DNA from: Burkholderiales bacterium
Lineage (GTDB): Bacteria > Pseudomonadota > Gammaproteobacteria > Burkholderiales > Burkholderiaceae_C
Direction: 5' to 3'
Length of the DNA stretch: 64,000 nucleotides
Assembly: GCA_021732385.1 (NCBI GenBank)
Contig: JAKFVA010000026.1
Coordinates: 1-64,000, forward strand
Each line of letters starts with the position of its first letter. Position 1 is the first letter of the stretch. Both the position numbers and the translations under genes were made by a program. Below the pieces are notes generated by a model, which saw only the letters and a program-made list of their open reading frames with translations, did no database searches and was not told the origin of the DNA. Shown piece by piece: positions 1-6,826 of the stretch.

Positions 1-590
1 TTGACTACATTGAGGGTTTTTACAATCGAGTCCGCAGGCACAGTCATCTTGACCAAATGAGTCCGCTTGCGTTCGAGCAACTTCAAACCGGAAGTTGATT
101 TATGTCTACGAAAACGGGTGAAGTCCACAGTGAGGGTCCCGAGTCGCTTCAGTTCTTCTAGCTTGCTGGGAAAGTTGTTTCTCCCAGACGTTTGACCTGA
201 AACCCAGACGTCTAATACGGAGCGAATTCCCATTAGGGCCATAGCATACATTCCACCGTCAAGCGCAGCGTAGACCTCCTGTAAGAGAATCCGTTGATTC
301 TGTTCAATCTGGCTTAGCCACTGTGGAGAACGGCGACATTCAGGAGGAGGGAACAGACTTGCGGGACTGCAGTCGTTCTCGGAGTTCCACATTACAACCT
401 GCAGTCGACCTTGCCCACACACTTGGCATTGCAAAAGCGTGTATGTCTCTGCGAAGTAAATCTTTGTTTGAAAAGTTTCATCAAAGGCAAGGTCGGTCTT
501 CTTGCACTCGCCGCGCTGTACGTGATAAGTCTCTGCGTGACAGCGATTGCAGTGCAAGGAGACGGTGGAAGACGTATCGATGGTGTTCAT
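1..590 (-). CDS. Partial cassette-like gene, zinc-ribbon protein resembling DUF4145
   Basis: An open frame runs from an ATG at 590 to the left edge with no stop (196 complete codons), so the C-terminus is missing. I do not recognise a precise function. The N-terminus has two CxxC pairs (CNRC near residue 14 and CQVCG near residue 55), a likely zinc ribbon. Residues ~105-150 read LQEVYAAL..GMYAMALMGIRSVLD followed by KLEELKRLGTL, which resembles the helical core of DUF4145 proteins. The ATG lies 4 bases past the attC core site at 594-600, the usual placement of a gene in an integron cassette. Base composition is AT-richer than the downstream genes. The DUF4145 match is from memory of the family pattern and is moderate. 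Confidence 0.6.
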   Translation of the reverse strand, partial: MNTIDTSSTVSLHCNRCHAETYHVQRGECKKTDLAFDETFQTKIYFAETYTLLQCQVCGQGRLQVVMWNSENDCSPASLFPPPECRRSPQWLSQIEQNQRILLQEVYAALDGGMYAMALMGIRSVLDVWVSGQTSGRNNFPSKLEELKRLGTLTVDFTRFRRHKSTSGLKLLERKRTHLVKMTVPADSIVKTLNVV

Positions 591-593
591 GAG

Positions 594-651
594 GCTCAAC
601 GTGAAAGCTGCAGCGGGCGGCAAAGCCGTCCGCTGCAGCGACATATTAGGC
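594..651 (-). other. attC recombination site (integron cassette)
   Basis: Read on the minus strand, the site ends with GTTGAGC (600-594), a perfect match to the integron core-site consensus GTTRRRY. It starts with GCCTAAT (651-645), one base off the RYYYAAC partner. Between them is a 15-bp stem (607-621 with 625-639) with a 3-nt loop and one G-T position, flanked by 6-nt and 5-nt spacers. Total length is 58 bp. It sits between the stop of one minus-strand gene (680) and the start of the next (590), where a cassette attC should be. The asymmetrical spacers and short gene-to-site distances fit attC rather than a terminator, and no T-run follows. Confidence 0.72.
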
Positions 652-679
652 CACGCCTGAATAGCTTCCGGACGGCTGT

Positions 680-1222
680 CTACTCTTTTGCCGGAGGTTT
701 TTCGTCAGGTGCTAAATTCCCAAGGTTACGAATGCTTGGAGCGACCTTTTTCAGCTCCTGAAGCAGCTTCGACTCGTCCACACGCCATACTGTCCCGTCG
801 CTAAGGCGAACACGCCGCACATAGGCGATACCGGTAAATACATCCTCATCGCGAAAACTGATTGAACCGTCGGAGCTGCTCTGACCGGGTTGTAGAGGCG
901 ACCAGTTTACGCTGTTGGTGCCTTGTACGATAAAACGACTGCCGATTAGCCGCTCATCAAAGGCATCGTACTTCAGCATCACAATTTCAAGTGCAATGAT
1001 TGGCTGCTGCGATGTACTCTTCCATGAATAGTGAGCCATGAAACGCGTTTCGGTCGACAGACCGCGCCCTCTATCTCGGTCTGCATTCGCAAACGAGAAG
1101 TTTGTAATTTCTACATGAGGTGAAAGGTTAACCGTGTACGCCTTGCGGTCCTCATAATTCTGTGCTGCTCCGGCTACACTAACGAACGTCGCGATAACGG
1201 CGGCTAAAAATATCTTTTTCAT
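680..1222 (-). CDS. Secreted hypothetical protein in an integron-type cassette
   Basis: A 180-residue protein of unknown function. The chosen start is the second of two adjacent ATGs (1222), because GGAG at 1228-1231 is then 5 nt away; a start further upstream would run through the attC-like sequence. Residues 1-19 (MKKIFLAAVIATFVSVAGA) form a Sec signal peptide with cleavage likely before AQNYED. The mature part is predicted soluble and beta-rich, with a proline/lysine tail, and I see no catalytic motif. It ends 28 bases before the attC at 594-651, so gene plus attC form one cassette. AT content is higher than in the housekeeping genes nearby. Confidence 0.7.
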   Translation of the reverse strand: MKKIFLAAVIATFVSVAGAAQNYEDRKAYTVNLSPHVEITNFSFANADRDRGRGLSTETRFMAHYSWKSTSQQPIIALEIVMLKYDAFDERLIGSRFIVQGTNSVNWSPLQPGQSSSDGSISFRDEDVFTGIAYVRRVRLSDGTVWRVDESKLLQELKKVAPSIRNLGNLAPDEKPPAKE

Positions 1223-1273
1223 CATTTCTCCGTAAATGTATTTCGGTTTTAAGTTAGCGAAACTAGCTGTGGA

Positions 1274-1317
1274 GCCCAACGTAATGTAGACCGCAACTTT
1301 TTGCGGCATAAACTAGC
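1274..1317 (-). other. Degenerate attC-like or attI-like core site
   Basis: On the minus strand GTTGGGC (1280-1274) matches the integron core GTTRRRY exactly, and a short stem (CCGCAA 1291-1296 with TTGCGG 1301-1306) lies beside it. The opposite arm (around 1311-1317) does not match a core site well. The site lies 52 bases upstream of the cassette gene start, as a cassette boundary should. It could be a worn attC or half of an attI. The rest of the gap to the tgt stop (1318-1492) holds no integrase gene, no recognisable ORF and no clear terminator. Confidence 0.4.
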
Positions 1318-1492
1318 AAATCGGGAGCCAAAAATCACTGCTGACTTATGGCAACAGTGCGCAGGCCGCTCCCATAAAGCCAGCGACAAACCCCGCAACC
1401 CGGCATCGGCTTGGTTCGTGCGCATATATTGACCTGCGGACTTCCTAGCCACAACTCTACGCGATGCGGACTCGTCGCGGTCAGCTTGTCTG

Positions 1493-2807
<1,315 letters not shown>

Positions 2808-2829
2808 TGGCAAGCAAAAGGGGGGTTTT

Positions 2830-3066
2830 ATGCAAGCCGTTATGCAAACAGAGTCCATAGTTTCCAGCAAAGGGCAGGTCACCTTGCCTGCCGCCATGCG
2901 CGCCAAACTGGGCATCAAACCTGGCTCGCACATTCAGTTTGAGCTGCGTGAAAATGAATTGGTGATTAAACCCGAGCTGCCCATGAGCGCCTACCGGGGC
3001 CTATTGAAGGGCTACGACTTGGGCGATATTGAGCCCGAGAAAGAACCCGATCGGGAGTTTGAATGA
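2830..3066 (+). CDS. vapB: AbrB-family antitoxin (VapB/MazE type)
   Basis: A 78-residue DNA-binding antitoxin. The swapped-hairpin AbrB motif is clear at residues ~9-45: VSSKGQVTLPAAMRAKLGIKPG followed by a beta strand with IKPE. The C-terminal acidic tail ([11 protein letters not shown]) is the part that usually wraps the toxin active site. The start at 2830 is preceded by a purine-rich AAAAGGGGG tract; an ATG twelve bases on is an alternative. Its last four bases overlap the toxin start (ATGA), the standard arrangement of a toxin-antitoxin operon. Confidence 0.88.
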   Translation: MQAVMQTESIVSSKGQVTLPAAMRAKLGIKPGSHIQFELRENELVIKPELPMSAYRGLLKGYDLGDIEPEKEPDREFE

Positions 3067-3470
3067 ATCTGGTGGATTCATCGGGCTGGATTGAATACCT
3101 GACGGACAGCCCGCGCGCCGATTTGTTTGAACTGCCGATCATTGAGCGCAGTTTGTTGCTGGTGCCCACCATCGCCCTGTTTGAAGTACACAAAATCCTG
3201 AGCCGCAACCTGCCCGCTGATTTGGTGGATAAGGCGCTCAATGTGATGCGCCTGGGCAAGGTCCTGGACTTCACCGATGCCCGCGCAATAGCCGCCGCCA
3301 AAATTTCGCGTCAACACAAGCTGGCCCTGGCGGATGCCGCCATGTACAGCATGGCGCTCGAATATAACGCCACGTTTTGGACACAAGACGCGGATTACGG
3401 TGGCTTGCCCGGCGTGCGCTATTTCGCCAAGCCCGCACCGCCACCCGTAGCCGCATCCAAAGCCGGTTGA
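3063..3470 (+). CDS. vapC: PIN-domain ribonuclease toxin (VapC type)
   Basis: A 135-residue PIN-domain endoribonuclease, expected to cleave RNA when not bound by the antitoxin just upstream. The acidic metal-binding residues are in place: D5 (VDSSGW), E41 (FEVHK), D91 (LADAAMY) and D109/D111 (TQDADY). The C-terminal ~17 codons ([13 protein letters not shown]) lie past the PIN fold and overlap the 3' end of queA on the other strand by 52 bp. That tail is probably read-through into a neighbour rather than function. The cellular RNA target cannot be read from the sequence. Confidence 0.9.
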
Positions 3471-4537
3471 GATGGCCGTGCAGCCGCAGGCTGGCGCGCC
3501 AGCAGCATCGCATCCCCGTAGCTAAAAAAGCGGTAGCGCTGCGCAATGGCGTGGCGGTACAGCGTCATGATGTGCGCATGCCCGGCAAAGGCGCTGACCA
3601 GCATCATCAAGCTGCTTTTGGGCAAATGAAAGTTGGTCACCAGCAAATCCACCACGCGAAATTCAAAACCGGGGCGGATGAAGATGGCGGTGTCGCCTTC
3701 TGCCAAACCCGTCAACGCGTGGCTCTCCAGCGTGCGCACGGTGGTTGTGCCCACCGCCACCACACGGCCACCGCGCGCCTTGCAATCGGCAATGGCCCGC
3801 AAGGTGGCGGCGGGAATCTGGTAGCGCTCAAAGTGCATTTGGTGGTCTTCAATTCGCTCCACCTTTACCGGCTGAAAAGTGCCTGCGCCCACATGCAGCG
3901 TAACGCTGGCGGTGCCCACGCCGCGTTCTTGCAGGGCGGCCAAAACACCGGCATCAAAGTGCAGCGCCGCCGTGGGTGCCGCCACGGCACCCGGGTGTTT
4001 GGCAAACACGGTCTGGTAGCGCGACTCGTCTTCAGCCGCATCGGCATGCGCAATATAGGGCGGCAGCGGCACATGGCCGTGCTGCGCCATGAGCGCATGT
4101 GCATCGCCCGACAAGCGCAAGTGAAACAGCGAGGCCTGCGCGGCGCTGGGCGTGGCCTCATGCAGCGCGGGCCAACGGCCCAGCAGCGTGGCGGTGAAGC
4201 CGCCCGCCATGTGCAGCACACTGCCCACCGGCGGTTTTTTGCTGACTTTCATGTGCGCGGCCACGCTGCCGTCAGCCAGCACCCGCTCAATCAGCAATTC
4301 CAGCTTGCCGCCGCTGGCTTTGCTGCCAAACAGCCGCGCCTTCACCACCTGGGTGTCGTTGAACACCAGCAAATCGCCCGCCTCCAAAAGGGCGGGCAAG
4401 TTGCTGAAAACGCGGTCTGCCAGCGCAGGGCTGCGCCCGTCTAGCAGGCGCGAGCTACTGCGCTCGGGTGCCGGGTGCTGGGCAATCAGGGCGGTTGGCA
4501 GGGTGTAGTCGAAATCACTGAGGCAATAAGCGCGCAT
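3419..4537 (-). CDS. queA: S-adenosylmethionine:tRNA ribosyltransferase-isomerase
   Basis: Transfers and isomerises the ribosyl moiety of SAM onto preQ1-modified tRNA to give epoxyqueuosine. The protein starts [22 protein letters not shown], the standard QueA N-terminus; an ATG three codons upstream (4546) is also possible and neither has a strong ribosome site. Other family blocks are [36 protein letters not shown] and [18 protein letters not shown]. The last ~17 codons overlap the toxin gene on the opposite strand and read as an Ala/Pro/Gly-rich tail beyond the family core. The gene is divergent from recG, with start codons only about 40 bp apart. Confidence 0.95.
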
Positions 4538-4576
4538 GGGGGGCAATAAAGGTCGGTCGCAAGGCAGAATTGTCCT

Positions 4577-6826
4577 ATGCCGTCAATTCCTGCTCCTGCC
4601 AAGCCAATTGCACTTGTTGCACCTGCTGCACCTGCACCAACGGCGTTGCAAAAAGCATTGCACAAGCTGGGGCTCAAGCGCGATATTGACCTGGCCCTGC
4701 ACCTGCCGCTGCGCTACGAAGATGAAACCCGCATCACACGCCTGGCCGATGTGCGCCCTGGCGCAGGCGCTGCCGACAGCGTGCAGATTGAAGCCGTGGT
4801 CACCGATTGCCAGGTGATGTACCGCCCGCGCCGCCAACTGGTGGTGACGGTCGATGATGGTAGCGACGTTTGCGTATTGCGGTTTTTCAACTTCTACCCC
4901 TCGCAACAAAAAGCGCTGGCGGCCGGCCAGCGCATCCGCGCACGGGGTGAGCTCAAAGGCGGTTTTGCCGGCTGGCAAATGCTGCATCCCACCTGCCGCT
5001 CGGCCAGTGGCGCGCTGCCGCAAGCCCTGACACCGGTGTATTCCACAGTGGCCGGGCTGGCCCAGCCCACGCTGCGCCGCGTGGTGCTGGGTGCGCTGGA
5101 GCGGGTGGACTTGGCAGACACCTTGCCCGCCCTGGCGCTGGCTGAAAATTTGCCAGCGCCTTTGTGGCGTTTGCAGGAAGCGCTGTGGTTTTTGCATCAC
5201 CCTAAACCCGATACCGCGCTGGACGAACTGCAAGACCGCAGCCACCCGGCCTGGCAGCGCCTGAAAGCCGAGGAATTGCTGGCTCAGCAACTGTCGCAAT
5301 TGCAAGCCCGGCGCGCGCGCAATGCATTGCGTGCGCCCATGCTGGCAGCGCCTGCCGGGAAAGCAGGCTTGAAATCACAGGCGCAAGCGCATCAGCAAGT
5401 GCCCCAGCCAGCGCCGCTGCACGAGCGCCTGCTGGCCGCCTTGCCGTTTCAGCTCACCGCCGCGCAGCGCCGGGTGTGCGCCGAGATAGCCCATGACCTG
5501 GCGCGCCAGCAGCCCATGCACCGCTTGTTGCAAGGCGACGTGGGCTCTGGCAAAACCGTGGTGGCGGCGCTGGCGGCGGCACTGTGCATTCAGGCCGGCT
5601 ACCAATGCGCGCTGATGGCACCCACTGAAATTTTGGCCCAGCAGCATTTTGGAAAATTGGTCGATTGGCTGGCGCCGCTGGGCGTACAAGTGGCCTGGCT
5701 GACTGGCAGCCAAAAAACCAAGCAGCGCCGCGAGATGCTGGCGCTGGTGGAGAGTGGCGAGGCGGGGTTGGTGATCGGCACCCACGCGGTGATTCAAGAC
5801 AAAGTGCAGTTCAGCAATCTTGCGCTGGCCATTATTGACGAGCAGCACCGCTTTGGCGTGGCGCAGAGGTTGGCTTTGCGAGGCAAGGCGTCGCTGAGGC
5901 ACTCGCGTCACGAAGGGGAACCCTCCCCCGGTCGGGGGAGGGCCGGGGAGGGGGTGAGCACGGAAAAACAGGGTGAGGCCGACGCGCAGCGCGAGCCTCA
6001 CCTCCTGATGATGACCGCCACGCCGATTCCGCGCACGCTGGCCATGAGCTATTACGCCGACCTGGATGTGTCCACCATCGACGAGCTGCCGCCGGGCCGC
6101 ACGCCGGTGGTCACCAAGCTGGTGAGCGATGCGCGGCGTGGCGAGGTGATTGAGCGCATTCGCACGCAAGTGGCGCAGGGGCGTCAGGTGTACTGGGTTT
6201 GTCCGCTGATTGAAGAGAGCGAGGCGCTGGACTTGACCAATGCCACGCAAACTCATGCGCAATTGTCGGCAGAGCTGGCAGGCGTCAGCATTGGCCTGCT
6301 GCATTCGCGCATGCCTACGGCAGAAAAAAAGGCGGTGATGGCGCTTTTTACCAGCGGCGCGATGGCGGTGCTGGTCAGCACCACGGTCATTGAGGTGGGC
6401 GTTGACGTACCCAAGGCCAGCCTGATGGTAATTGAGCATGCCGAGCGCTTTGGCCTATCGCAATTGCACCAGTTGCGCGGGCGGGTCGGGCGCGGCGCGG
6501 CGGCGTCGGCCTGCGTGCTGCTGTATTCCACCGGGGACGCCAGCCGCCTGGGCGACACAGCCCGCGCCCGCCTGAAAACCATGGTGGAAACCACTGACGG
6601 CTTTGAAGTGGCCCGGCGCGATTTGCAAATTCGTGGCCCAGGTGAATTTTTAGGCGCTCGCCAGTCGGGCGACGCGCTGCTGCGCTTTGCTGATTTGCAA
6701 ACCGATAGCGCATGGCTTGAATGGGCGCGTGCCCTGGCCCCGCAAATGCTGGACGCCGAGCCCGTCATGGCGCAAAAACACCTGGATCGCTGGCTGGGCA
6801 CCAAGGCGGCCTATTTGAAAGCTTGA
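4577..6826 (+). CDS. recG: ATP-dependent DNA helicase RecG
   Basis: Remodels stalled replication forks and Holliday junctions. In order: an N-terminal wedge/OB domain (~1-200), helicase domain 1 with Walker A ([11 protein letters not shown]), the DEQH box ([14 protein letters not shown]) and motif III ([11 protein letters not shown]), helicase domain 2 (motif [12 protein letters not shown]), and a C-terminal RecG wedge segment. The 749-residue length is above the ~690 of E. coli. Much of the excess is an insert of about 30 residues between the DEQH block and motif III, encoded by a GC-rich palindrome (5921-5955). The frame stays open through it. oxyR follows 180 bp downstream. Confidence 0.96.
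5921..5955 (+). repeat. REP-like palindrome inserted in recG
   Basis: A perfect 10-bp inverted repeat (5921-5930 with 5933-5942) with a 2-nt loop, followed by CCGGGGAGGGGG, which partly repeats the right arm. C-rich/G-rich elements of this shape are dispersed repeats in many Burkholderiales genomes. Here it is translated as [12 protein letters not shown] inside RecG helicase domain 1 and keeps the frame. Confidence 0.65.

Follow-up and report, generated by a model that had tools for sequence, protein, structure and literature searches.

Clusters of attC sites lacking integron-integrase (CALINs), for which the proposed origins include loss of intI and off-target insertion (PMC8618304), occur at several loci in Xanthomonas (PMC12444791). 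About one third of intI are pseudogenes, and more than one intI is found in about 20% of intI-bearing bacteria (Nemergut 2008, PMC2426708). The attI sites outside class 1 have been called 'poorly described' and are undetected by IntegronFinder (PMC9024848); thus, arrays headed by such an attI would be filed as plain CALINs or, if they carry one attC, missed under the two-attC default. In delta-attI-type cassettes, a piece of attI replaces attC at the 3'-end of the cassette (PMC12901181). On orphan or multiple attI in Comamonadaceae, a brief literature search brought up no paper, which is a weak negative.

The window, i.e. the whole stretch of DNA analysed here, is 64 kb long and starts at the first base of contig C16, in a draft genome of 2.6 Mb and 61 contigs. 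Beside tgt it very probably contains an integrase-less, attI-anchored integron array, a subtype of CALIN counting one clear attC on C16 and a second, degenerate one (13 bits) on contig C23 across a putative join, with no intI nearby. Read away from tgt, the order was attI, cassette A with its attC, and cassette B, which an IS3-family element interrupts (Table 1).

Table 1. Features of the array and its flank in the window (a slash within a motif marks the crossover)
Feature	Position	Strand	Remarks
IS3-family 3' end, interrupting cassette B at contig edge	1..127	+	transposase C-terminus DYIEGFYNRVRRHSHLDQMSPLAFEQLQTGS (stop), terminal repeat ..GGGTGAAGTCCA
Cassette B gene, 5' part (DUF4145-like)	128..590	-	ORF; remainder on C23 beyond IS
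attC of cassette A	594..651	-	R'' GCCTAAT 645-651, R' GTTGAGC 594-600, 15-bp stem
Cassette A gene	680..1225	-	ORF; 181 aa, no assigned function; N-terminus signal-peptide-like
attI	1274..1326	-	hairpin arms CCGCAA..TTGCGG (1291-1306); crossover G/TT at 1280/1279
Conserved leader box TTGCGGGGTTTGTCGCTGGCTTTATGGGAGC	1368..1398	-	about 116 bp before crossover; 17/19 consensus positions, 0/500 shuffles
tgt	1493..2722	-	ORF; chromosomal gene on attI side of array; homologues in 61/61 genomes

The preliminary description of this DNA had reported a 58-bp element with two core boxes and a 15-bp stem, as well as a further core box at 1274-1280. Both boxes of the element were present on the minus strand, on which the further box read GTTGGGC. 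The plus strand of the element, the bottom strand and thus the recombinogenic one when cassettes are read on minus, folded into the stem described (-20.5 kcal/mol, z -5.5); an A/C mismatch within the stem made the fold of the minus strand poorer. The spacing of the genes was cassette-like, as had been noted, with an ATG at 590, 3 bases past the box, and the stop of the upstream gene at 680, 28 bp ahead of the site. A covariance model (R1) built from 38 attC of intI-adjacent arrays in relatives, own genome excluded, gave this element as its sole match in the window (33.1 bits, E 2.2e-6; E 8.9e-5 genome-wide, with nine matches in total), far above chance. By blastn, the element was 80-84% identical to the dfrB attC sites of class 1 integron plasmids (55 plasmids matching), including those of dfrB2 on R388 and dfrB1 on pKp1050-3. 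The element is thus a genuine attC. A search of window positions 1-5000 against Rfam gave no attC or attI match, chance matches only. A lone core box is no evidence, since 31 + 34 = 65 of them occur in the 64 kb; the one at 1274-1280 counts because an attI precedes it.

That box was preceded by TAGTTTATGCCGCAAAAAGTTGCGGTCTACATTACG, and the attI of intI-linked integrons in relatives end alike, for example ..GGTGCGGTCTACATTACG/TTAGGT in genome G010, to which the window attI was identical over the last 18 bp. A second model (R2), built from 22 attI beside intact or truncated intI in other genomes only, scored 1274-1326 at 38.5 bits (E 6.3e-6 genome-wide). The crossover form G/TTRRRY was observed at this site, and cassette A started at the crossover. 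The box is, by these matches, the predicted crossover point of an attI, so that tgt lies next to the attI end of the array and not next to its far end. Consequently, the earlier statement that no attI lies between the attC and tgt has to be withdrawn, while that on the absence of intI from this interval holds, as the 212 bp separating attI and tgt contained no intI. The suggestion of an array end or a CALIN was right as to the CALIN-like nature; with tgt at the attI end, however, the array has an anchor, unlike a free attC cluster. It is not a complete integron, in which intI adjoins attI, since the only full-length intI of the genome sits on contig C2. Insertion into an ordinary site (attG), our first idea, was dropped when the boundary matched the attI of relatives and the target scored as attI.

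No intI remnant was detectable beside the window attI, and descent from a complete integron therefore rests on the leader box and the attI homology. The ancestral platform would have been an intI-attI integron that later lost intI, and a decay series was seen in the family, with intI full-length, truncated, or absent next to homologous attI. Cassettes would have been inserted by IntI at G/TT through recombination of a folded attC with double-stranded attI. An inverted repeat before the crossover was common in the family, a stem of at least 6 matches being present in 47 of 76 distinct attI versus 8% of shuffles. The repeats differed in sequence among attI (e.g. AGAGCA..TGCTCT and CCGCAA..TTGCGG) and may serve as a paired IntI site or form a hairpin in RNA or ssDNA.

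The leader box, with the consensus GCNGGGTTTGNTGCTNTNTTTAT, was common to the orphan attI on four contigs of this genome, C16, C40, C17 and C14, the last of which was left out of the box definition and matched 17/19 positions. It was located at -115/-116 in these four, as in one further locus (L111); most other loci had it at -143 to -148. In intI-linked loci it overlapped the start codon of intI; in most integrase-less loci this codon was gone and its flanks were kept, which suggests a non-coding role, such as that of a cassette promoter. The box would be either a cassette promoter or a remnant of the intI start. At about 116 bp upstream, it probably represents the remains of the cassette promoter, and the cassettes would be transcribed from the leader. 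Since loci were kept for their box score, the jump in conservation at the box is partly by construction, and its fixed position in 32 of 44 loci is the safer evidence.

The minus-strand ORF of cassette A was listed from 1309, but the start is more likely at 1225 or 1222, inside the cassette. Homologues with 82-83% amino acid identity were cassettes in two other attI-headed arrays of Comamonadaceae: one, in a metagenome-assembled genome, lay directly behind an attI beside hisF, where the intI remnant was just 35 residues, and the other, in Curvibacter gracilis, was part of an array at whose head an attI is accompanied by an intI remnant of 72 residues. Nucleotide similarity (blastn) was confined to the cassette gene. 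The same cassette is thus present at three loci that are unrelated to each other, as a mobile cassette would be. Searches of the cassette proteins with Pfam and PADLOC found little. The G+C content of the cassettes was about 50%, so that 'AT-rich', as the genes had been called, applies merely relative to the 59% of the window.

Matches to DUF4145 were weak, both for the N-terminal part of cassette B, on a plasmid, and for the remainder on C23. The ends of the interrupting IS were found at nine places in the genome, nearly all at contig edges. A 3-bp target duplication, CAG, followed the right end of the IS on C16 and preceded its left end on C23, and the reading frame of cassette B continued across the IS into C23, where it was followed by a DUF433 gene (42 bits), the degenerate attC-like site, a two-gene pair with the look of a toxin-antitoxin system, and an MFS/acyltransferase gene. 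The last of these adjoins tgt in two relatives (G007 and G013), which supports the C16-IS-C23 join. The join crosses an assembly gap and a 3-bp duplication can match by chance; frame and synteny agree with it. These observations strongly suggest that the array continues across the IS into C23, with the DUF433 and toxin-antitoxin-like genes as cassettes, and ends at the MFS/acyltransferase gene. Continuation to the left of position 1, on which the preliminary description had let its reading depend together with an attC model match, thus has the duplication, the continuous frame and the C23 cassettes in its favour if the join is correct, and the model match is the 33.1 bits given by R1. Linking C16 with C2 via the IS was rejected, as the flanks differ (TAT versus CAG).

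On the other side, a pair of AbrB-like and PIN-like genes lies between tgt and queA (window 2830-3470, plus strand), with a VapBC-type toxin-antitoxin look by eye. The region downstream of tgt was not conserved in 60 relatives, among which, the same genus not being represented, no empty site beside tgt was found; the one informative result of this comparison was the proximity of tgt and the MFS/acyltransferase gene in G007 and G013.

Five attI were detected in the genome by R2: that on C2 (41.3 bits), accompanied by a full-length intI (443 bits to TIGR02249) and its own cassettes, and those on C16 (38.5), C40 (34.9), C17 (31.2) and C14 (28.8), all without intI; noise followed at 15.3 bits. The crossover sequence was kept at C2, C16, C40 and C17, and the first attC scored 67.4 bits by R1 at C40 and 33.1 bits at C16. 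The C40 locus (130-806, L097) consists of an orphan attI, a cassette and a strong attC beside a TonB-receptor-like gene, with no intI visible. On C17 (50607-51600, L096), an orphan attI and a HEPN-like cassette gene, after which no attC was detected, lie between fba and a higBA-like pair plus purC. The orphan attI on C14 (67575-68250, L170) precedes a cassette of the uracil-DNA-glycosylase family next to an IS, and the attC of this cassette is shortened to little more than two core boxes. At the right end of C2 (143900-146368, L008), an attC (58.4 bits, minus) and an attC-like site surround a DNA-methylase gene accompanied by a divergent HTH gene, a restriction-modification-like arrangement that reads toward the C2 intI, with a higBA-like pair beyond. 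C11 (1330-2004, L164) carries a single MOSC-like cassette with an attC of 29.8 bits and the left boundary TTTAAATTGCG/TTAGGC; R2 gave no match there that would make it a sixth attI, and the boundary is a candidate for a true attG insertion.

The relatives searched belong to one large family within one order and include no genome of the same genus. An attI sequence pattern, absent from all reversed controls, matched 37 of the 401 family genomes, and intI around the sites so found ranged from full-length through a start-proximal fragment to undetectable. The attI model gave 207 sites in 99 of the 401 genomes, with two or more in 51 and up to seven in one (G302). Among 40 sites inspected, intI was undetectable over about 2.5 kb upstream of 30, a proportion that is not a family-wide rate because the sites were drawn mostly from multi-attI genomes. 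An attC followed downstream in the right orientation at 36 of the 40, and at 26 of the 30 without intI; around predicted attI, 63 attC were downstream in the right orientation versus 5 elsewhere. The attI model was the sole criterion for choosing the inspected sites, so the downstream attC validate it. A full-length intI elsewhere in the genome accompanied orphan attI in G310, G409, G276 and G194, while no intI match was found in the multi-attI genomes G302, G267, G385, G298, G358, G303 and G184. Thus, both live and dead orphan-attI platforms probably exist. G302, rated 100% complete, has seven attI (L176-L182), most with attC downstream, and no intI match, and is a natural case for fossil platforms.

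As to the present activity of the attI-anchored array, the orphan attI and cassettes may be dead relics, fossils unused by any integrase and kept by drift or because their genes are useful or addictive. Many multi-attI genomes lack an intI match, G302 among them, and distal attC are either degenerate or missing on C23, C17 and C14; a full-length intI in the same genome, the attC scores of 67 and 33 bits at C40 and C16 and the intact crossover sequences at four of the five attI speak against it, and we place this reading just under an even chance. That the C2 integrase would load or excise cassettes at the tgt array in trans is plausible and a little less probable again. More doubtful is the wider proposal that integrase-less attI platforms may form a class of element that is maintained and dispersed in Comamonadaceae/Burkholderiaceae, in which a short leader (promoter-like box plus attI) at several chromosomal loci would be loaded in trans by one IntI encoded elsewhere or by transient integrases.

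The remaining alternatives concern the origin of the array. IntI, which the genome encodes at full length, could have placed a cassette in an ordinary site beside tgt, with more cassettes following; such attC x attG insertion is reported in E. coli (cited in PMC12444791), and off-target insertion has been proposed as one source of CALINs (PMC8618304). This is improbable, since the boundary is a full attI by the independent model R2 and hairpin, spacing and upstream box recur at four unlinked loci, which would not be so with random targets. Still less probable is that the array was part of the C2 integron and was cut from its intI by an IS or an inversion. Copies of IS are abundant in and around the arrays and C2 ends in another cassette cluster that reads toward its intI, but C2 keeps its own attI and cassettes by intI, the tgt array has an attI of its own with a different leader, and the IS flanks of C2 and C16 differ. 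A chance combination of palindrome and core boxes could draw on the frequency of the boxes alone; with two independent models, the similarity to plasmid attC and the homologous cassette in two other arrays against it, its probability is negligible.

Integron surveys are built on intI and attC. A working attI model for the family can tell attI-anchored arrays and off-target insertions apart, and this has a bearing on the origin of CALINs. It is common for a genome to carry several attI (51/401), and most inspected sites in such genomes have lost intI while their cassettes remain. If one integrase served several attI in trans, the order and expression of cassettes would need to be considered at the scale of the whole genome, and if platforms loaded in trans are a true class, the integron would be a distributed system rather than a single locus.

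The tgt array resembles CALINs in having attC cassettes and no neighbouring intI, and differs from them in being headed by a recognisable attI and leader. With the sedentary chromosomal integrons of Burkholderiaceae, such as that on C2, it shares the attI and hairpin, the attC type, the spacing and the direction of the array, but it has no intI, and its leader is about 30 bp shorter than that of intI-linked sites and lacks the CTGT..ACAG (LexA-like) part. Integrase function is lost as in integrons with intI pseudogenes (PMC2426708; Xanthomonas, PMC12444791), in which, however, intI is broken, whereas here it is absent and four intI-less attI occur in one genome. Insertions into attG and delta-attI-type cassettes (PMC12444791, PMC12901181) likewise involve IntI recombination outside the canonical attI/attC pair; attG is unlike attI, whereas the target beside tgt scores as attI, and, in contrast to delta-attI-type cassettes, cassette A has its own attC at the 3'-end, with the attI heading the array on the 5' side.
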